From the NCBI GenBank assembly GCA_003331985.1, contig QOQK01000001.1:62001-126000 (forward strand): DNA of 64,000 bases, given 5' to 3'. The position numbers were made by a program, and so were the translations under genes. This document shows positions 6,507 through 17,473 of this stretch, in pieces (the first letter of the stretch is position 1; each line of letters opens with the position of its first letter). The stretch is from PS1 clade bacterium. Lineage in GTDB: Bacteria > Pseudomonadota > Alphaproteobacteria > RS24. The notes beneath the pieces were generated by a model, which saw only the letters and a program-made list of their open reading frames with translations, was not told where the DNA came from and ran no database searches.

Positions 6507-7340
6507 ATGTTTTTTTTCCCGCTGAGAGACGATAATCCCACATCAAAAACCCCTTGGGTGAACTGGGTTATTATTGCCTTATGTTGCTTTGTATTTTTGG
6601 TTCAACTATCTCAAGGCGGCTATAATGAAGTGCTTATTCAAGGTTTGGGTGTTACCCCCGCTGTTTTGTTTGGACAGAACTATCTCCCTTTCGAATATCA
6701 ACTCGTGCCCTCCTGGGCAACTGTCTTGACGTCAATGTTTCTGCATGGCGGGATCATGCATCTACTTGGCAATATGCTTTATCTTTGGATTTTTGGTGAC
6801 AACATAGAGGACTGTGTCGGCTCAAAATTTCGTTACATTGCTCTCTATGTCTGCTGTGGAATTGCGGCAGCATTTGCACAAAGCTTAGTTGACCCAAATT
6901 CGATGGTACCCATGATTGGTGCCAGTGGGGCAATTGCCGGTATGCTCGGCGCCTATCTGATTTTACATCCACGGGCCAATATCATCTGCCTTGTAGGATT
7001 TTTCGTTTTTTTCCGTACCGTTAATGTCCCGGCATTTCTGGTGCTGGGTGGTTGGATTGGTTTGCAATTCCTCAATCTCGGACAAGTTGATAGTGGCGTG
7101 GCATATGTCGCTCATATAGGCGGATTTGTTGCCGGTATTATCCTAATTCCCTTTTTCAAGCAGGCTCAAGTACCGCTTTTTGACAAGCCACATTCCAAGG
7201 CGTTTAAAATTGATCGTGTAGAGACTAAAGAACTGGCAAAGGGACTACATGTGCCCTCTATGCCCAGAACACCGACGGAAAAACCCGTAAAAACACCAAC
7301 CGACAATGAAAAAAAAACAAAAAAACATCCTTGGGCTTAA
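6507..7340 (+). CDS. Rhomboid family intramembrane serine protease
   Basis: MFLHGGIMHLLGNMLYLWIFGDN, catalytic IGASGAIAG and AHIGGFVAG. Confidence 0.93.
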   Translation: MFFFPLRDDNPTSKTPWVNWVIIALCCFVFLVQLSQGGYNEVLIQGLGVTPAVLFGQNYLPFEYQLVPSWATVLTSMFLHGGIMHLLGNMLYLWIFGDNIEDCVGSKFRYIALYVCCGIAAAFAQSLVDPNSMVPMIGASGAIAGMLGAYLILHPRANIICLVGFFVFFRTVNVPAFLVLGGWIGLQFLNLGQVDSGVAYVAHIGGFVAGIILIPFFKQAQVPLFDKPHSKAFKIDRVETKELAKGLHVPSMPRTPTEKPVKTPTDNEKKTKKHPWA

Positions 7341-7591
7341 AATATATTTTGTAATAAGAAATTATGTTATTTAGATTTTTAAGCTCTAGGAATAATCTAC
7401 CAAGAATTAAAACATATTAAATGTCAGGCTTGACGTAATACTAAAATAAGTTCAACTTTAAATGCTAGATATCGGATATTAGCGATTTAATCTTAAATAT
7501 TAAAATAGATATTTATTAATAATTGACAGGTTCAATAACAAGACTATTAAGTATCTTTTATTTTATTTTTTCCTAATTAAGCGATTTAAAA

Positions 7592-8224
7592 ATGCAACTG
7601 GACATAAACAAAATACTAGAATTTATATTTGTTGAATTTGATAAAAACCCAACAGAATGGATACTTTTCGGTTGTTTGATTGTTTTATTTTTAGTTTTTT
7701 TTGTATTGAGATTAGTGTTTTTCAGCTCTAAGGACGTTGTTGCAAGAAAAGGGAAGCCGAGTATTTTAAATAGTATTAAAAATGTTGAAGAAAAAGATTT
7801 ATCATTACCACTCGGTTTTTTAGATACTAAGAAATCTAATAATGTTGAAAATTTTAACCTTAATTCTAATGCCCTTGACGATAATGCAAACTCATCTGTT
7901 AGCGAATATCTATATCTTGATGATAATAGCCTAATTGAAGAATTAACTATTCCTCGGCCAGGAGATGTTTCAAGTGATAAAAAAAATTATTCACCAGATA
8001 AATCAGCTTTAGAAACTAAAAAAGATTTTTCAACATTTGATCAAAAAAATATTCATGAACAAGAAATTCTTGATAAGTCAATTTTAAATTTATCTGAACT
8101 TGAATTAATAGAGATAGAGAGAAAGCTAATTGCTTTAAAAGAACTGCATAATGCTAATTTGATTGCCAAAGAAATTTATGTTTTAAAAAGTCGTGAAATT
8201 TTAGAGGATTTTTATAATTCTTAA
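7592..8224 (+). CDS. Membrane-anchored protein with SHOCT-like C-terminal helix pair
   Basis: One N-terminal TM, low-complexity linker, C-terminal ELIEIERKLIALKELHNANLIAKEIYVLKSREIL resembles SHOCT-type short C-terminal domains. Confidence 0.55.
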   Translation: MQLDINKILEFIFVEFDKNPTEWILFGCLIVLFLVFFVLRLVFFSSKDVVARKGKPSILNSIKNVEEKDLSLPLGFLDTKKSNNVENFNLNSNALDDNANSSVSEYLYLDDNSLIEELTIPRPGDVSSDKKNYSPDKSALETKKDFSTFDQKNIHEQEILDKSILNLSELELIEIERKLIALKELHNANLIAKEIYVLKSREILEDFYNS

Positions 8225-8335
8225 AATCAATTTATTTATTTTGAAAGTTTGTTGAGATTATTCTAGTATAGTGTATTAATGAGAGTTAATTATCTAGACT
8301 TTACTAGATAATCATTTACCTAAGGATCAAACGAG

Positions 8336-8629
8336 ATGTTTCAAATTAAAAATCTATATGTAATATTTACTATTTTATTATTTGGAGTCTCAGTAAGTGC
8401 TTGCGATAATGCAAATAAACCACAAACTGAAGAACCAGTCAGTGAAACTTCTATTGAGGAACTTAACGAAGCTCCAGCTGATGATGAGGCTCCAGCTGAT
8501 GATGAGGCTCCAGCTGATGATGAGGCTCCAGCTGATGATGAAGCTCCAGCTGATGAAGAAGCTCCAGCTGATGAAGAAGCTTCAGCTGATGAAGAAGCTT
8601 CAGCTGATGAAGAAGCTTCAGCTGAATAA
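8336..8629 (+). CDS. Small acidic repeat lipoprotein
   Basis: Signal peptide with VSVSAC lipobox followed by hexapeptide EAPADD/EAPADE/EASADE repeats. Confidence 0.7.
   Translation: MFQIKNLYVIFTILLFGVSVSACDNANKPQTEEPVSETSIEELNEAPADDEAPADDEAPADDEAPADDEAPADEEAPADEEASADEEASADEEASAE
8468..8626 (+). repeat. 18-bp in-frame tandem repeat (about 8.8 copies)
   Basis: gaR gct Yca gct gat gaW repeated; copy variants occur in ordered blocks. Confidence 0.95.
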
Positions 8630-8671
8630 GATTCTCCTATTTAGTAATTATTAATTTTACTTAAAAAGATT

Positions 8672-8700
8672 AACCCCGCTTTAATTGGCGGGGTTTTTTT
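8672..8700 (+). terminator. Rho-independent terminator
   Basis: aaccccgc / gcggggtt stem with 8-nt loop, then a T run. Confidence 0.85.
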
Positions 8701-8844
8701 ATCATTAATCGAATTTTTAATTTTTTTTAATATTTGACTCTTAAAATTGACCTTTGGTTTTACTATTAAAATTACAGGTTTGTGAAAGTACTCAAAATCA
8801 TTAATCGTTAATTTTTCTAGAGAATTAAATTATTATTATTAAAG

Positions 8845-9888
8845 TTACTGAGAAGCTTTTGCTAATTCTGCTTTCAGTGCTTCAAGCTTTTGATAAAGGA
8901 TATTTACCTCATTTGATAATTTTCTTAATTCTTCACCGTAAGACGCTTTTTTTTCAATTATTTTCATCTGGCCTTTGAAAATCATCTCTTTAATTTGGAG
9001 CAAAGATGAAGACAGGCCACTTTGTAAAGAAACATTCATGTCTAAATAAGTTTGAAACCCCAACTGAGGGGTATGTTTACTAGGTTGTAAATAATTTTCA
9101 TAAAATTCTAATAATTCATTTTTTTGAAATATTAATTCCTTCTTATTCTTATGTATTTTTGCAATTTGGTTATGAGCTGTAGCTACTCTTATAGCTTTTA
9201 TCATATGGGTATCGAACTCTTCCTCGTTAAAGAAACGAGCAATTGACAACTCAATATCGTACGCCAAAGTGACACTGTATTCGTCAAGAAGTATTTCTAG
9301 AATATCTAAGGTATCAACGTTTTGCATTTTCAGGAAAACTGGTTCTTTACTTGCCTGCAGAGATGGTGAAAGGTAGATTGAAATATTCATTGACTTTGCA
9401 AGTGTCTCAATAACATTAGGTAAATGTAGACCAGCAAAATTAGCACTCATCTTTTTACTGGATATTAATTCTTTTAATTCAACTTGGCCAGCTGTAAATC
9501 TATTGGTAGATGAGTTTGCACCTAAAAAAATAAAACCCTCCTGAAGACTAACAAACTGATCGGGAGCTGAAATTTGGTTTCTACCTAAAAATGCTAACTC
9601 CTCCGCTGAGTCGCTTTTTGAAAAACCAATATTAGTTTTTTCTTCCAGTGTTATGATTTCATTATTTAATTCTATTAATTCTGAAACGATAAATTGTTCA
9701 ACGTCAAAAATTATTTCTTTCTCAAGTAAAGAAATTTCACCATCCATATTTGTCATAAAATCTTTTAGATTATTTTTTTTATGGTCTAATTCTTCTGTTA
9801 TGATTTCTATATTAGCTTGTAAAGAGAAAATGTTTTGATTATCACTTATACTGCATCCTGTTAATAATAAAATTATTATTAGAGGCAA
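8845..9888 (-). CDS. Lipoprotein with STN-like (secretin/TonB short N-terminal) domain and coiled coils
   Basis: LLLTGC lipobox; VIETLAKSMNISIYLSPSLQ...VDTLDILEILLDEYSVTLAYDIE resembles STN-type domains; coiled-coil flanks. Confidence 0.5.
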   Translation of the reverse strand: MPLIIILLLTGCSISDNQNIFSLQANIEIITEELDHKKNNLKDFMTNMDGEISLLEKEIIFDVEQFIVSELIELNNEIITLEEKTNIGFSKSDSAEELAFLGRNQISAPDQFVSLQEGFIFLGANSSTNRFTAGQVELKELISSKKMSANFAGLHLPNVIETLAKSMNISIYLSPSLQASKEPVFLKMQNVDTLDILEILLDEYSVTLAYDIELSIARFFNEEEFDTHMIKAIRVATAHNQIAKIHKNKKELIFQKNELLEFYENYLQPSKHTPQLGFQTYLDMNVSLQSGLSSSLLQIKEMIFKGQMKIIEKKASYGEELRKLSNEVNILYQKLEALKAELAKASQ

Positions 9889-9944
9889 TCTTTTTTGATC
9901 GTTAAATAATATATTAATTAAAAATTTAATAGTTAATCTCCCTC

Positions 9945-10340
9945 TTAAAGAGGTTTACGAACGTCTGCTATTTTACCTATTGCTTCTTTTATCACAGCTT
10001 TAGCTATACTAGCCATATGACGATTGATCCAAGCTTCAAGCAAAGGTTTGGTGACCTCTACCACTGCCTTATTTATTGTTTCGCGGGTACTCTCTGTATC
10101 AAATACACTACTAAATCTTAAAAATTCCGCTCGTAAAGCTAATGTTGCTTCTTCGGTAATGAGTAAATCAAGACCTTCAATATGCTTAGAAAGCTCTTCC
10201 TCGGTTATGTTGATACTTTCCTGTTTCTTACCTTCAATATCACTAACATCACCACTAGAACTATGAAGGGTTTTTTCTGCATCTGAAATCAATATTTTAA
10301 TAGACGAAAGCAGTTCCTCAGAGGTTCTAATATTTGTCAT
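9945..10340 (-). CDS. PopZ-like / DUF2497 family protein
   Basis: N-terminal RTSEELLSSIKILISDAE resembles the DUF2497 SxEEILxSIRxIIxD motif; C-terminal TKPLLEAWINRHMASIAKAVIKEAIGKI resembles the PopZ C-terminal helices; acidic middle. Confidence 0.65.
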   Translation of the reverse strand: MTNIRTSEELLSSIKILISDAEKTLHSSSGDVSDIEGKKQESINITEEELSKHIEGLDLLITEEATLALRAEFLRFSSVFDTESTRETINKAVVEVTKPLLEAWINRHMASIAKAVIKEAIGKIADVRKPL

Positions 10341-10447
10341 GATGTCTAATCCATATTTTACGGTTTACAGCAAAGAGCATAGGTACGTATATTTTTAAGT
10401 ATATCTAGAATGCAACTGTTTTTGCAGAAAATTTTTTTCAATAACCA

Positions 10448-11260
10448 CTAAAGGTAAATATTATATAGATGATTTGTAACATTAAAAAAATGATCAATTA
10501 AAGCCGCACAAACGAGAAAGCACCCAAACGGTAATTCTAGCTCTAAAATATTTTTATTATTTATAGCGCTAAAAGAAATATCTAACTTAGAGTAATAAAT
10601 AACATAGCTAATACCTAGTAAAGTTCCCAAAAAGCTGGCGATAAACAAAATTACTAAAATATTTTCTACACCCATCCATATTCCAAGCATTAGCATTAAC
10701 TTAGCATCACCAAATCCAATTCCATTCTTACCCCGCAAAATACGATAAATTAAATTAATAAAATAAATTGTAAAGAACCCCAATCCTCCCGCAATTAATG
10801 ACTCAGTAGTATTAGGCAAACTAGGAAATTTGTATATTACGAAAATTAATCCTATGGCAGTTCCACCTATAGAGGCGATATCAGGAATGTGAAAGGCTTC
10901 CATATCCGTTAGGAAAATTATACTGAGAATGCAAATAAATGGCAGATAAACTACTGTTAGATAACCACCGAAAACCATCAAATGTGAAATAAAAATAATC
11001 GCAAAGGCAAATTCAACTAATAAATAACGTATCGGAATTTGAGAGGCACAACACTTAGAGTTGCCGAAATAGCGCAGATAACCAAAGATAGGTATATTTT
11101 GAAGAAAAGTAAGTTTTTTATTACACGCAAAACATTTGGATTTAGTAAAAATCCAATCCTGTCCCCTTACTAGTCTATAGGCGCTTGCATTAACAAAACT
11201 TCCAATACAAGCCCCCAAACCAAAAAAAAGAATAAGATAGTATAAATTTAATTCTAGCAT
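10448..11260 (-). CDS. Prepilin peptidase (A24 family, PilD-like)
   Basis: GACIGSFVNASAYRLVRG, Cys-rich zinc-binding-like segment (KCFACNK...KCCASQIPIRYLLVE), catalytic-type FLTDMEAFHIPD and GFGDAKLMLMLG. Confidence 0.88.
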   Translation of the reverse strand: MLELNLYYLILFFGLGACIGSFVNASAYRLVRGQDWIFTKSKCFACNKKLTFLQNIPIFGYLRYFGNSKCCASQIPIRYLLVEFAFAIIFISHLMVFGGYLTVVYLPFICILSIIFLTDMEAFHIPDIASIGGTAIGLIFVIYKFPSLPNTTESLIAGGLGFFTIYFINLIYRILRGKNGIGFGDAKLMLMLGIWMGVENILVILFIASFLGTLLGISYVIYYSKLDISFSAINNKNILELELPFGCFLVCAALIDHFFNVTNHLYNIYL

Positions 11261-11336
11261 TTAAATAATCAAAACAGATGAAGTAAATTTGGATAAATTG
11301 TTATTGGTTAATAAATCTTACAAATTTAATTAGATA

Positions 11337-11906
11337 TTAATTCCATAGTATTGTTTCTTTTATTTTTTTCCAGTGAAGCCCTGTATCAGATTGTTTCACT
11401 GTCATGTCCAGACAAACAAATATTGAAATATTAAATTGACTACTTTGAAGAGATGTATCATTAGCAATAATCACTATGCCATCCACTCCGTTGGCATCAC
11501 CTGTTTTATTGCAATCTCTATTACTATTTGGTGTTTCAATATCATGGAAAACTTTATGTGGCTCTGGAATATTTCTAGCTTCAACAGCATTATTTTCAAT
11601 ATTGTAAGGATTTTCTATATTAACAAATGGACCGTTTTCCATATAGAAACTTTGAAGACACGACAACATCTGATCATGGCTTAATATTTCATTGCATTCA
11701 CTAAATTTTATGTTTTCTTGATTGGAGTAAGTTGCCAAGGTTCGGTAGATACTTTCCGCATTAGAGATGGCTTGATCTTTTCTAACACCTTCAACAAAAC
11801 CATTATAATTTGTAAGACCTATAGCAGAAAGTACCCCAAAAATTGCGATGACTATTAGCAACTCAATTAAACTGAAACCATTTTTTACTTTTTGAAAAAA
11901 TTTCAT
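11337..11906 (-). CDS. Type IV prepilin-like protein
   Basis: Prepilin cleavage motif G/FSLIELLIVIAIFGVLSAIGL near the N-terminus. Confidence 0.85.
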   Translation of the reverse strand: MKFFQKVKNGFSLIELLIVIAIFGVLSAIGLTNYNGFVEGVRKDQAISNAESIYRTLATYSNQENIKFSECNEILSHDQMLSCLQSFYMENGPFVNIENPYNIENNAVEARNIPEPHKVFHDIETPNSNRDCNKTGDANGVDGIVIIANDTSLQSSQFNISIFVCLDMTVKQSDTGLHWKKIKETILWN

Positions 11907-12179
11907 TTTAAGCCCTCACAAATTAATTATTTTTAAATTTTGTCATTGATAATTAAACTTTTAAGAAATTCTAAACAACAAGATAAATTTATAATCCACT
12001 TAATGTTGATGACAAGCTAAAAGTCTTATGTTTTTTCTAAATAGTAGGGGTGAATAAAAAAAAAACACAATAAAAAAACATATATTACATAATAGGAACT
12101 TTAAAAAATATTAATGAAAATATGTTTAACCATATTAGTTAACGATCTTATATTTTCAGACTATGCCATTAATAAAGTT

Positions 12180-13451
12180 TTAATTCACCATTGGTAAAGA
12201 ATTAATTGGTAAAGTCAAAATTTGACCTTGAAAATCAATAGCGATAACCTCTTTATTAGTAATTTTAATAACCATCCCACCAGAATTACCTATTTCTTGT
12301 CCTTCATACATATTAAATGTTTTTGTGGAGATATTTTCAAGACTAGTTTCCTTACTTTTGACTTTATTTTGATTGATTATATTTTGCAAAAACCTTATTG
12401 AAGCTATACTATTAAAAGTCTTCTGACGTTCGTTACCAGGCATCCTTCTTATCGGTTTACACTCCAACCCGAAACTTTTAAATAAAGCACAGTAACTTTT
12501 TGCATGAGATAATGTTTCAATGGGGCCAAGTTCAAGAGTAATAATCTCTTCTTTATTATTATTATTATTATTTTCATTTTCAAAACGTAAAATTATGTCT
12601 GTGTCAAGAAAGTCTCGATAATCTGAATAAAATTCATTAGTTTTACTCGTCGCTTCTATAATATTTTTAAACCTAAAAAGTTGTACATAAAATTTGCGAG
12701 CAATCCCATCATTTGAATTGAGTTTTTTTGTAAAATTTACTACCGAAACTAAATCTTTTTTCATTTCCTCCGAAATAGTATTTTTTCGGATTAATAAATT
12801 TTGCCCTTTAAAGAGCCAATCATTAGAAGCAATTTTATTTTCTTTTTTAAGCTCTTCGATGGAAATATTATATATACGTGAAAGTTTAAAAAGAGTATCT
12901 CCGGTTATGACCTCATGAATTAAAGAGCCATTATCCTCAGGCGAAACAAAAAACTCATCTTTATTTAAAAGTTTTTCAACTTTAGAAACCCCATTCAATA
13001 TGGCTAAATCATGGCTATGAAGACGAAACCTATCTAAAATATCTTTTATAGTTTCGTCCTTTTCGGGACGGTATATCCATCTTCTGCTTTTAGGATCTAA
13101 AAATAAAATATTATTATTATTTTTTAAATCTGACTTGTCCAAATGTATAACAGGGGATTGTGGAGCCTCCAAAACAAGAAGACCATCTACTCGGTAATGA
13201 GAAAAACTCAAAATTTGGTTAAAATTGGGAAAATCAAAAATTCTTTGAGCGTTTTCCTCCCTTTGTTTAAGATTGTTTTTATTAGTAACGTTGCCAATCC
13301 GTTTTTGAAAACCATCAAATGTCTTTTGCCTTTGCAAACCTCGAACGAATGGATCATCATTTTCAACTATAAAGTTTTGTGAAACTGAATTTCCCGCACT
13401 TGTCATCATCACTATTATCATAAAAGAAAAAAAAAATTTACGTTTCATCAT
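12180..13451 (-). CDS. LysM + SPOR-like protein with PilP/GspC-like C-terminus
   Basis: Signal peptide; LysM EVITGDTLFKLSRIYNISIEELKKENKI...LFKGQNLLI; SPOR-like FYVQLFRFKN...LGPIETLSHAKSYCALFKSFGLECKPI; C-terminal SGGMVIKITNKEVIAIDFQGQILTLPI. Confidence 0.6.
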   Translation of the reverse strand: MMKRKFFFSFMIIVMMTSAGNSVSQNFIVENDDPFVRGLQRQKTFDGFQKRIGNVTNKNNLKQREENAQRIFDFPNFNQILSFSHYRVDGLLVLEAPQSPVIHLDKSDLKNNNNILFLDPKSRRWIYRPEKDETIKDILDRFRLHSHDLAILNGVSKVEKLLNKDEFFVSPEDNGSLIHEVITGDTLFKLSRIYNISIEELKKENKIASNDWLFKGQNLLIRKNTISEEMKKDLVSVVNFTKKLNSNDGIARKFYVQLFRFKNIIEATSKTNEFYSDYRDFLDTDIILRFENENNNNNNKEEIITLELGPIETLSHAKSYCALFKSFGLECKPIRRMPGNERQKTFNSIASIRFLQNIINQNKVKSKETSLENISTKTFNMYEGQEIGNSGGMVIKITNKEVIAIDFQGQILTLPINSLPMVN

Positions 13452-14677
13452 TCTTTGCCTTTTAATGCAATTGCCATCTTTAAACTTACACTTAACAAAT
13501 TTGTGTCCTGTTTAGCGATTAAACTTTCCTCAATTATTGCAACATTTTTAATTTCATCTATGAATTCTTGTCTTATAGATTGATAAATCTTAAATCTGCT
13601 TTCTAACTCCACAGTAACTGTGTTGATCAGAACCGGCAGATTATTGCCAACTATAAATTTACTTTCAGCATCCACATCATTGGTAATTGATATGATTTCA
13701 ACACCAAAACGTTCAAATGCTGCAAGAAACCGTTGTAATAAAAAGTCAAACCTCTCCCGATCAACAAGCGTACCTGCTAAGTTTTCTGACCTTTTCTCCA
13801 GCAATTTTATTTGGGAGAGGAGATCACCGGAACGTTTGTTATTTTTGGCAATCTGACCCTGAAAAATCTTAATTTCATCAGCTTTTCGGTTATTTTCCGA
13901 AATGGAGGGCTGAATATAGGTAAAATTCAAAATCGGGGGAAGCACAGCCACCAGCAATAGAACAAAAGCAAGAACTGCCGTTTTAGGAATAGGCGACGAG
14001 GATATTTCAGCCTCAAAAATTTTCCTCACCACACCCGGTGCGTCAGCATCCGCAACGCCACTGGCCTGTCCGCCTTTTATTTTGTTAAGCCCTGCAGCAA
14101 AACGTAATTTCAGCTGTTCTAGATGTGAAACAGGGGCAAAATTATTATCCGCCTCATTTGTATTATTACCAACTTCTTCATCTTCATCTGATGACTTAGC
14201 AAAATTCGGCAATGCGTCATGCATATCGCGAACAAGTGTTGACAAATCCCCTGACGCAGCCGCAACATCAGCATAATCAGCCTCGACATCTGTCATAAGA
14301 TTCATCAACTGATCGCCGCCCCTATCGGGAATATCGAATTCATTCGTTATTGGGACATCTTTATCAACTTTATCGCTGTCACCCGGCTCATCAAATGTCT
14401 CATCGAATGTCTCATCATATTTCTGGGTGTCAATTTCATCAGATGTAAAGGCGTCAAAAACCATTGCATTCAATTCAGTCTGTTCTGACGGCATAATATC
14501 CGCTTCAAAACTATGAACTTCTTGATCCGCGCCGGGGGCTTCACCATTCATGGGGAGCGTGACATATTTCCGAGTAGCCTTGTCGGTCGCCAAGTCAGCT
14601 AGCATAGTCTGAGCATCGCTGGACAAATGCGACAGTCCATCAGCTTCATCATGAAATTCTTTTTGCGACGATGACAT
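13448..14677 (-). CDS. PilO/GspM-like membrane protein with long acidic N-terminal cytoplasmic region
   Basis: Single TM (TAVLAFVLLLVAVLPPILNF) followed by coiled coil and small alpha/beta domain; located between the PilMN-like gene and the LysM gene; 4-nt overlap with the latter. Confidence 0.55.
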   Translation of the reverse strand: MSSSQKEFHDEADGLSHLSSDAQTMLADLATDKATRKYVTLPMNGEAPGADQEVHSFEADIMPSEQTELNAMVFDAFTSDEIDTQKYDETFDETFDEPGDSDKVDKDVPITNEFDIPDRGGDQLMNLMTDVEADYADVAAASGDLSTLVRDMHDALPNFAKSSDEDEEVGNNTNEADNNFAPVSHLEQLKLRFAAGLNKIKGGQASGVADADAPGVVRKIFEAEISSSPIPKTAVLAFVLLLVAVLPPILNFTYIQPSISENNRKADEIKIFQGQIAKNNKRSGDLLSQIKLLEKRSENLAGTLVDRERFDFLLQRFLAAFERFGVEIISITNDVDAESKFIVGNNLPVLINTVTVELESRFKIYQSIRQEFIDEIKNVAIIEESLIAKQDTNLLSVSLKMAIALKGKE

Positions 14678-14680
14678 CCG

Positions 14681-16324
14681 CTAACCCTTCTGACGTATCA
14701 TAGCGTTAATGGTGAAACGGTAATAACCGCCAGTTTTTTGTTGTGTAATCGGTGCTTGTGTTGCGAGGCCGCTTTTCACCAACTCTGCTGCAAATGTGTT
14801 GATAGCAGAACTGCTCAGCGACAATCCTTCCAATGTCACGGTACCATCGCTCTTAACGTTCAATTTTTGTAATTCGGCATCTTGCGGTAACATGGTCGCA
14901 AGGCTGGACATGAAAATGGTAAACCCCTTCGGCTCAGTAAAGTCACTGATTTTTTTCTCATTATCTCTGAGCTTATCGAGTTTTTTTGTGAGGCCTTTAT
15001 ATCTTATAGCTTCTGTCTGAGCCTCACCTTGTAACGCCTCATAGGCGGCAACTTTAGAGGAAGAACTGACCAGCTCTGGGATATTTGTAATACCCATCAT
15101 GAGAGTAGAGGCCACAAAAACGGCACACACCGCCGCAATTAGCAATTTATTAACCGCCGCAAATTGTCGGAAAGTTCGGATATTCCCACTGTTAGGCAGA
15201 AAATTGATATCCAAAAGTTTTTTATAGCGCTGGCTATCATCATAACCCGCAATATTGATGCTTTGCGTGGCGAGCCCCAGCGCCGAAGTAAATACGCTGC
15301 TATTATTAAAATAATCTACGAATTTGGCTTGGTCAGGTGGAACTTCAATATCCTCAAGCAACTCAATTTTCTTAAGCCTGAGATTACCAACTCTGTCGCG
15401 CAAAAGAATTTCTACATTGCCAATATTTTTATGCTCGCTCACCAACCAAAAGGATTTGATTGTGGGAAAGTTTTTTACTTCATTGAGATAAGCAATCGCC
15501 TGATTGATATGCTCCCCAACCCTAATACCTACTTCATCCCAGAACTCACCGGATATATCGTCCAGTTCCTCAAGTTCCAAAAGCAATGCATCGTCGAATT
15601 CACTGACGGAAATCGGAAAAATTTCAATGCTGTTTTTAGTAAAACCGATGACAACATTATGACCGGGACATAAATGGACAATCAGTTGAGGTTTTTGTAG
15701 ATCCTCAAATGATAATTTCGTGTAAATGCCATTTACCAAAGAAAAAGCTTCATTTTCGATGTAAACGGGCATAAGTCCGGCTTCGAGCAACAAATCTGTG
15801 TAGCGTTTAACGGTTGTTTCAGGAATGCTTGAGAAAAGAACTGTTGTGCGGTCTTCATTCTCATTGGCGCTTAATATTTGATAGCGCACAATCTTGCCAT
15901 CCAGATCGTTTAATTCGGGATCATTTTCCCCCCAGAAGCCTTCAAGTTGCGACTCATCTTCTAATTCTTCCGGCAACATAAAGGGTAAATTAAGTATGCG
16001 GGTGTCAAATTGGGAAAAGGGGATAGATATCCCTGCATCAAGACCGGTAACATTGGCTTCGATACGGACTTGTCTAATCTGATTGACCAGATACTCGAAA
16101 TCTTCTTGAAGAGGTGCAGGTCCTACATTCCGACCTAGCGACCAGGTCACAATCCGGTCAAGACGCCAACCATCTGAGGAAGCGGCAGCATCCATAGCCG
16201 GGTCAAGTTGCAAAACCGAGATAGAGTCAGGATGGATTTTAACCGCAACAATGTTATCCTGAACTGTATGGATTTTACTGGCCGCTTGAACGGCACTACT
16301 AAGAAACGCCTCGGACCTACTCAT
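14681..16324 (-). CDS. PilM-PilN-like fusion (actin-like ATPase domain plus TM assembly domain)
   Basis: N-terminal PilM/GspL-like region (VAVKIHPDSISVLQL, RQVRIEANVTGLDAGISIPFSQFDTRILNLPF), then TM and PilN-like IFMSSLATMLPQDAELQKLNVKSDGTVTLEGLSLSSSAINTFAAELV. Confidence 0.65.
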   Translation of the reverse strand: MSRSEAFLSSAVQAASKIHTVQDNIVAVKIHPDSISVLQLDPAMDAAASSDGWRLDRIVTWSLGRNVGPAPLQEDFEYLVNQIRQVRIEANVTGLDAGISIPFSQFDTRILNLPFMLPEELEDESQLEGFWGENDPELNDLDGKIVRYQILSANENEDRTTVLFSSIPETTVKRYTDLLLEAGLMPVYIENEAFSLVNGIYTKLSFEDLQKPQLIVHLCPGHNVVIGFTKNSIEIFPISVSEFDDALLLELEELDDISGEFWDEVGIRVGEHINQAIAYLNEVKNFPTIKSFWLVSEHKNIGNVEILLRDRVGNLRLKKIELLEDIEVPPDQAKFVDYFNNSSVFTSALGLATQSINIAGYDDSQRYKKLLDINFLPNSGNIRTFRQFAAVNKLLIAAVCAVFVASTLMMGITNIPELVSSSSKVAAYEALQGEAQTEAIRYKGLTKKLDKLRDNEKKISDFTEPKGFTIFMSSLATMLPQDAELQKLNVKSDGTVTLEGLSLSSSAINTFAAELVKSGLATQAPITQQKTGGYYRFTINAMIRQKG

Positions 16325-16475: not shown

Positions 16476-17048
16476 TTAACTGTTTCGAGAGTGGTTGCCA
16501 TTATGCAAAGCATCGGCCATGGCACGGGTTTTTTCTCTCGATCCGCTTGAGGACCCGAAAAAATAAGCAATAACTTGGTCAGCTTTGGCGGAAACATAGC
16601 CGACAAGCGTCCCGGAAAAGGCTGCCGTCGTACTGTCTAGATGGTTCAACCCATTCATCAAAATGTAAGCAACTGTGGCAAAAAAACAAAGTAAAACCAT
16701 GATTCCAAGTAAGTTAGGCCAATAATCACCAAGCTTTTCCTGTCGATGGCGTGCCGCATTTCGATCTTGTACATGCAGGGTCTCTATTTCGACATCAAGC
16801 TTACGCATCTGCACATCAAATTTCTTTTCTGCCTGTCTAAGTTTTTCCAGCATGACAGCATCGCCCGTTAACGGACCGGAGAGAAGTTTCGTGGGACTTG
16901 CAGACTGCTTCACGCCAGATTGATCGGGGAATAGTGTGTTTGCCAATGTTTGCGTTGCGAGACCGGCAAATGGCCCCCCCAATGCCAGGCCAACCCTTGG
17001 CGCAATACTCTTGATTAACCCCTGCCAGGCTTTATTAGGCCTACGCAT
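16476..17048 (-). CDS. 3TM holin, gene-transfer-agent/phage type
   Basis: RVGLALGGPFAGLATQTLANTLF, coiled coil with DRNAARHRQ, C-terminal TM helices and AKADQVIAYFFGSSSGSREKTRAM match the GTA-type 3TM holin pattern. Confidence 0.85.
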   Translation of the reverse strand: MRRPNKAWQGLIKSIAPRVGLALGGPFAGLATQTLANTLFPDQSGVKQSASPTKLLSGPLTGDAVMLEKLRQAEKKFDVQMRKLDVEIETLHVQDRNAARHRQEKLGDYWPNLLGIMVLLCFFATVAYILMNGLNHLDSTTAAFSGTLVGYVSAKADQVIAYFFGSSSGSREKTRAMADALHNGNHSRNS

Positions 17049-17473
17049 CAGTCACCTTGCCTCGCATAGCTCCAAATCATAGGGCGAGGCGCAAAAGGAC
17101 GAGACTCGGCATTATCCAGATGAATATATCGCCCCACCAACGGGCAGGACTGCATTACCCCGATACCGGTCATGCCGAGCGATGTAGCGGCTTGCACCAA
17201 CTCATAGGCGCGTTCTCCATAAACACCTATATCCGCAGCACAACCCAAAGCATGCGAACCGGGAGACAACTTCAATGTCTCGAGTGGATGCTGCAGGCTG
17301 CGGTAACCCGATGTGATTATGAAGGGAAACCCCAATGCGGATCTCAATAGCTGTAAGGCATCCAAAAAACGGAGTTGCATTCCACATGACCCTGTATGCT
17401 TACATTGAAATTCTCGTAAGGCGAAATTCGGCCATCTCTCTTGATTCCAATTTTCTGCATTAATGTGATTCAT
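17048..17473 (-). CDS. M15-family D,D-peptidase (phage-type endolysin)
   Basis: FALREFQCKHTGSCGM, ITSGYRS, SPGSHALGCAADIGVYG and YIHLD supply the M15 zinc ligands; 1-nt overlap with holin. Confidence 0.87.
   Translation of the reverse strand: MNHINAENWNQERWPNFALREFQCKHTGSCGMQLRFLDALQLLRSALGFPFIITSGYRSLQHPLETLKLSPGSHALGCAADIGVYGERAYELVQAATSLGMTGIGVMQSCPLVGRYIHLDNAESRPFAPRPMIWSYARQGD

Follow-up and report, generated by a model that had tools for sequence, protein, structure and literature searches.

A type IVa pilus cluster without its motor half in an alphaproteobacterium, and its parallel in another genus

Introduction

Is a locus that carries the scaffold of a type IV pilus, a prepilin and a prepilin peptidase, and nothing to drive them, a machine of its own kind or what is left of an ordinary one? 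The question is raised by a run of seven minus-strand genes in the window, by which we mean the whole 64,000-nucleotide stretch analysed here. A preliminary description, made from the sequence alone, had called the run a minimal, non-standard type IV pilus-like locus and had taken its PilM-PilN fusion and the LysM modules replacing a standard PilP as signs of an atypical machine. The comparison reported here supports the description and not the reasons given for it: the locus derives by reduction from a type IVa pilus (T4aP) cluster and is not a differently built machine, and its oddity is that the motor half has been lost while the scaffold half has been kept, with a parallel in another genus.

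The window comes from a draft alphaproteobacterial genome (G000) of 1.32 Mb in 50 contigs, 78% complete. Genome content was compared over 28 genomes, those treated here being 1.1-2.0 Mb in size; G006, G009 and G010 belong to the same genus as the window and G015 to another genus (GC 54%, 93% complete).

The genes of the locus

An ORF check of the window found seven of the seven minus-strand genes where the preliminary description had placed them, most of them correctly named (Table 1).

Table 1. Genes, gaps and the divergent segment of the window locus
Feature	Positions	Strand	Evidence or remark
Low-GC divergent segment	about 7300..13600, ends approximate	none	GC ~0.30 vs 0.45; no G009 affinity inside
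Conserved membrane protein of the locus, 210 aa	7592..8224	+	No Pfam family; 43% to G010 homologue
Gap	8630..8844	none	Relatives have PilQ secretin domain and minor-pilin-like genes here
Truncated PilQ: lipoprotein signal, coiled coil, STN-like domain, coiled coil	8845..9888	-	PilQ alignment; no secretin domain
Second, T4P-linked PopZ paralogue (DUF2497)	9945..10340	-	DUF2497 E = 2.5e-6
Prepilin peptidase PilD	10448..11260	-	Peptidase_A24 E = 8e-17
Gap, 76 bp	11261..11336	none	Relatives have pilT here (opposite strand)
Prepilin, 189 aa, GFSLIE cleavage motif	11337..11906	-	N_methyl E = 3.7e-8; 50% to G010 prepilin
AT-rich gap, 273 bp	11907..12179	none	Relatives have pilB, pilC, rsbW, rsbU, STAS here
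LysM + SPOR-like + PilP-like envelope protein, 423 aa	12180..13451	-	LysM E = 6.5e-11; 47% to 483-aa G010 homologue
PilO-like protein, 409 aa, long acidic N-terminal extension	13448..14677	-	75% to G010 PilO, complete T4aP operon
PilM-PilN fusion, 547 aa	14681..16324	-	Pfam PilN, TIGR01175 PilM, PDB 3jc8

The PilM-PilN fusion, 97% identical to its counterpart in G009 and 93% to that in G010, is borne out by matches to both halves: the PilN part meets Pfam PilN at E = 6.9e-8, the PilM part meets TIGR01175 at E = 2.3e-5, which lies under the NCBI curated cut-off, and among PDB sequences the Myxococcus xanthus PilM 3jc8 is matched at E = 5e-5. The PilO-like protein agrees with its name in position and topology, and not in family searches: none of nine family members matched Pfam PilO, and a PilO profile found nothing relevant among PDB sequences. 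Its putative identity as PilO rests on operon position (pilMN before it, the PilP-like gene after it), on a topology with one predicted transmembrane stretch, and on a low-confidence alpha-beta-beta-alpha-beta-beta order at the C-terminus (mean pLDDT of the model 37). The structure models of this and the LysM protein came from 3-row alignments, with pLDDT 37 and 35, and are too poor for a fold search. In the LysM protein the LysM modules are clear and the PilP-like end is weak (PilP matches in three of ten family members, best E = 0.14); the window copy is without the Ala-rich C-terminal tail that is conserved in relatives.

Family searches confirmed the remaining names with one amendment. No A24 peptidase other than PilD was found in G000, or indeed in any genome of the family; the A24 match is single per genome in 18 of the 28 genomes, and the type II secretion (gsp) operon is without one. 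PopZ is the pole organiser of alphaproteobacteria, and the PopZ-like product of the locus belongs to that family, its DUF2497 match being above the cut-off and its C-terminal oligomerisation region conserved; the NCBIfam PopZ_fam match (E = 2.6e-8) lies under that model's whole-protein cut-off. A canonical popZ-like gene is found elsewhere, on contig C13, where it adjoins a valyl-tRNA synthetase-like gene. The product named an STN-like lipoprotein does have a lipoprotein signal and an STN-like domain; it is in fact PilQ without the secretin domain, 45% identical to residues 99-437 of the 847-aa PilQ of G010 (E = 4e-103).

Two side observations belong to the neighbourhood. At 8336-8629 (+), in the low-GC segment, lies a gene for a 97-aa putative lipoprotein with acidic EAPADDE/EASADEE repeats, which is absent at the corresponding place in relatives. 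Beside pilMN, at 16476-17473 (-), two small genes named by eye resemble a phage lysis pair (a peptidase-M15-like protein of 141 aa and a membrane protein of 190 aa); they occur in G009 and G006 and are absent in G010.

Derivation from a complete pilus cluster

At the syntenic place G009 and G010 have a complete T4aP cluster, in the order pilMN, pilO, LysM-pilP, pilB, pilC, then rsbW/rsbU/STAS on the other strand, prepilin, pilT (other strand), pilD, the popZ paralogue, pilQ, minor-pilin-like genes, the conserved membrane protein, a metallo-hydrolase and a CHASE2 adenylate cyclase. Its PilB matches TIGR02538 at E = 6e-161 and its PilT matches TIGR01420 at E = 4e-126. A fused PilMN, a LysM protein and a PilO with an acidic extension are all present in these complete clusters, beside PilB, PilC, PilT and PilQ, and so are, to judge from sequence comparison, ancestral parts of the family's ordinary pilus machine. 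A PilM-PilN fusion has also been reported in T4P clusters of Campylobacterota (PMC11870540). Besides the pilus genes, the complete clusters of the genus encode STAS, RsbU and RsbW proteins of a partner-switching module together with the CHASE2 cyclase and the metallo-hydrolase (L083:7372-9615, L085:3858-7009), which suggests control of the pilus by cAMP and a partner switch.

The absence of an assembly ATPase, platform and secretin, which the preliminary description had seen at the locus, is upheld: tblastn of the locus detected no remnant of pilB, pilC, pilT, the regulators, the minor pilins, the metallo-hydrolase or the CHASE2 cyclase, and only the N-terminal part of PilQ is present, the secretin domain being absent. 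The genome search for pilB, pilC and pilQ that it had proposed returned only type II secretion system (T2SS) counterparts. In G000, at 78% completeness, the sole T2SSE match sits in the gsp operon and the only platform found is the T2SS GspF; with one secretin, the one T2SSE ATPase and the one T2SSF platform (two domains) are all on contig C41 and are the genome's only such matches. This operon (C41 3-10065) holds gspD-E-F-G-like genes, a pseudopilin gene and GspK-, GspL- and GspM-like genes; no prepilin peptidase lies within it, and gspC was not seen, the operon being at the contig start. The GspC/D/E/F set is therefore not at the window locus: gspD, gspE and gspF are on C41 and gspC was not identified.

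The window locus shares PilM, PilN, a putative PilO, a weakly PilP-like protein, prepilin, PilD and part of PilQ with the T4aP machine (PilMNOPQ-BCTD), all homologous and syntenic with the same-genus clusters; unlike that machine it is without PilB, PilC, PilT, the secretin domain and minor pilins. A prepilin with an N-methylation motif and a prepilin peptidase are both present. The T2SS, for its part, is distantly homologous and shares the peptidase, but is a separate operon with its own gspDEFG...KLMN-like genes. The locus is descended from T4aP and is not a member of it in the working sense, ATPase, platform and secretin having been tested for and found absent; it can no longer extrude a pilus and cannot work as a known T4aP.

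A divergent segment inside the locus

Part of the locus differs in history from its flanks. At about 13,600, inside pilO, and again at about 7,250-7,350, both composition and affinity shift: GC is ~45% outside and ~30% inside, and identity to G009 is ~95% outside and ~60% inside; within the PilO-like protein identity to G009 falls from 97% to 68%, the last ~50 codons lying in the segment. Sites that distinguish G009 from G010 favour G009 in the flanks (176 vs 25 in pilMN, 103 vs 13 in a GntR gene), whereas in the genes of the segment they favour neither (50/57, 24/17, 58/49, 19/16, 46/58). Synonymous divergence from G009 is likewise about 0.1 in the flanks and saturated inside. Vertical descent with fast decay in the window lineage was considered and is ruled out by the segment siding with neither congener and by the dS contrast. 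In trees the window copy sits on a very long branch that leaves at the genus crown or close to it, and its grouping with G009 is not rejected (p = 0.14). No close match to a donor turned up among 385 genomes of the class.

Given the affinity of the flanks to G009, the lack of affinity to either congener inside the segment and the saturated dS there, the segment either came in from a divergent relative by recombination or was possibly joined by the assembler, two origins that look alike in these data; real recombination is favoured by the order and strand of the genes and by the reading frame across the junctions.

The parallel in another genus and the family loss series

G015 has nearly the same reduced gene set. 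One of its contigs carries the end of pilO, then LysM-prepilin-pilD-popZ and the N-terminal pilQ part, the conserved membrane protein and a rhomboid flank, and pilMN with the start of pilO lies at the end of another contig. In this 93% complete genome no T2SSE match above the cut-off, no T2SSF and no secretin was found. The reduced contig of G015 has a 99.6% identical counterpart in bin G011, so that the arrangement is confirmed in a second assembly; this counterpart is probably a contaminant in G011, the remainder of which has full-type pieces. A shared origin of the two reduced loci was also tried: a clade of window and G015 is rejected (AU p = 4.5e-42), and the G015 proteins group with their own relatives, not with the window. 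In alignment the two PilQ remnants have nevertheless been trimmed alike on both sides, each keeping the lipobox, lacking the same ~100 residues after it and stopping after the second coiled coil; in G015 a PilQ scrap is still detectable beyond the stop (E = 0.001). The G015 PilD (L117:10912-11700) has lost the N-terminal Cys motif and kept the GFGD protease motif.

Across the family the losses are graded, from G006 through G000/G015 and G026/G013 to G018. In G006 (L088:9521-10111) a single deletion has cut pilB at codon 133 of 570, fused it to an rsbU scrap and taken pilC away, with pilQ, pilT and the rest of the cluster intact; its T4aP motor is broken. G026 keeps prepilin, pilT, pilD and popZ, and G013 keeps prepilin and popZ. 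In G018 (L155:8822-9892) only the popZ paralogue and the conserved membrane protein are left of the whole cluster, a pairing that hints at a joint role apart from pili. PilMN occurs without T4aP PilB/PilC in three of the 28 genomes (G000, G006, G015), and the reverse occurs in none of the 28.

Constraint and drift

On the G015 branch, set against G011 with its full system, PilMN is not accelerated (19 vs 15 changes, dN/dS 0.05), whereas the N-terminal part of PilQ is (38 vs 12); had PilMN in G015 been relaxed to the same degree, about 54 changes would be expected (P about 5e-8). On the window branch the LysM protein (57:27), the prepilin (29:7) and the N-terminal PilQ part (55:17) are accelerated, PilD less so and PopZ not at all (4:4). 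The window segment has ~108 excess replacements, which under neutrality would bring ~9 stops where none is observed (P about 1e-4), an estimate assuming that every excess replacement arose after the reduction. Of the deeply conserved columns, 23 of 24 are kept in the LysM modules against 34 of 54 in the SPOR/PilP part of the same protein (p = 0.002), and 45 of 45 at the C-terminus of the locus PopZ. Weaker are the rate contrasts between proteins, with p = 0.06 for the N-terminal PilQ part against PilMN and p = 0.22 for window PilQ, LysM protein and prepilin against PopZ. All genes are open; the LysM modules and the PopZ C-terminus, and PilMN in G015, are still constrained, and the pilus-specific parts drift.

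What the retained half may be

We slightly favour reading the reduced cluster as a static, motorless polar envelope anchor, with a probability of roughly 0.45, because the parts that were kept match the polar-delivery half of T4aP and the scaffold that PilMNO proteins form in Campylobacter without a pilus. In Pseudomonas aeruginosa the polar delivery of T4aP involves the alignment complex, the peptidoglycan-binding N-terminal part of PilQ, a LysM protein and a polar hub (PMC5285504; M. xanthus PMC10653833), and PilO localisation there requires the N-terminal AMIN domains of PilQ and the LysM of FimV (PMC5285504). The half of this installation pathway (PilQ AMIN, FimV LysM, PocA; PMC5285504, with M. 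xanthus PMC10653833) that is retained at the window locus would differ in what it serves, since there it places a functioning pilus machine, whereas the window locus has no extrusion apparatus; its binding domains are different too, no AMIN having been found. In the flagellar motors of Campylobacter, PilMNO homologues without a pilus form a scaffold, or cage (PMC11870540). This FcpMNO/PilMNO cage resembles the window locus in keeping alignment-complex proteins without a pilus motor, and another cage protein has a PilQ-N1-like domain (PMC11870540); the window locus, for which a role as static scaffold is proposed only, differs in also keeping prepilin, PilD, the LysM protein and the PopZ paralogue.

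The anchor reading starts from the observed gene content and homology, the absence of motor genes at the locus, the G015 parallel and the patterns of constraint. Its proteins would form one complex at the pole: PilMN-PilO would sit in the inner membrane, the LysM modules would hold peptidoglycan and the trimmed PilQ lipoprotein would link the anchor with the outer membrane, while a polar hub, PopZ or a different one, would be bound at its cytoplasmic face; the formation of the complex, its polar position, the PopZ link and the function are what we infer. None of the papers searched joins PopZ and PilM. PilD is probably kept since the type II pseudopilins of the genome need a peptidase, it being the only A24 peptidase found while the gsp operon has none; the lost Cys motif in G015, where no T2SS was detected, fits this retention for type II secretion. 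That this alphaproteobacterial family converted T4aP on two or more occasions into a trans-envelope polar anchor which has no motor (PilMN-PilO, LysM/PilP-like protein, secretin-less PilQ lipoprotein) and is tied to a dedicated PopZ paralogue is a tentative proposal, which we would expect to fail rather than hold.

The same genes may instead be a slowly eroding relic of repeated pilus loss, leftovers without joint function in which PilD serves type II secretion and PopZ its own function at the pole, and pilMN, pilO, the LysM gene, the prepilin and the PilQ stub have simply not yet been deleted; we give this nearly as good a chance as the anchor. The graded losses speak for it, as do the truncated pilB of G006 with its rsbU scrap, pilC gone and the rest intact, the acceleration on the window branch of the LysM protein, prepilin and PilQ part and not of PopZ, and the loss of the PilD Cys motif in G015; the graded series and this last loss, together with the G015 PilQ scrap, the drifting SPOR/PilP part and prepilin and the weak rate contrasts between proteins, count against the anchor. 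Erosion sits less easily with ORFs that are all open despite deep divergence, with the strong constraint on G015 PilMN after drift of PilQ had begun, with the preserved LysM modules, with the three genomes that have PilMN and not T4aP PilB/PilC where none has the reverse, and with the parallel retention of nearly one gene set, down to the matching two-sided trimming of PilQ around a kept lipobox.

Two further explanations bear on whether the locus is what it seems. It is unlikely that the contig wrongly joins G000 to a low-GC relative at ~13,600 and ~7,300, so that the reduced cluster would be another organism's: the sharp shifts in GC and affinity at both ends, the incomplete draft of 50 contigs and the lack of a donor among the 385 genomes would fit, but pilO and the pilO-LysM overlap are in frame, order and orientation match relatives on both sides, and two correct joins would be required. 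Even then the 6 kb reduced cluster would be the real sequence of some close relative. Very improbable is a filament that the prepilin and the PilMNO scaffold would build with the help of the T2SS, using its motor, platform and secretin; G000 does have GspE, GspF and GspD and no peptidase other than the PilD of the locus, but the T2SS has GspL- and GspM-like genes of its own, and G015 carries the same reduced set with no T2SS ATPase, platform or secretin detectable.

Implications

If the retained genes are only a relic, they record repeated loss of the pilus in a lineage of small genomes, and they are a warning against taking pil genes in such genomes as a sign of pili. If the leftover half is functional, it would join the Campylobacter flagellar cage as the second case in nature of a pilus alignment complex working without a pilus, and here the alignment complex would be linked to PopZ.
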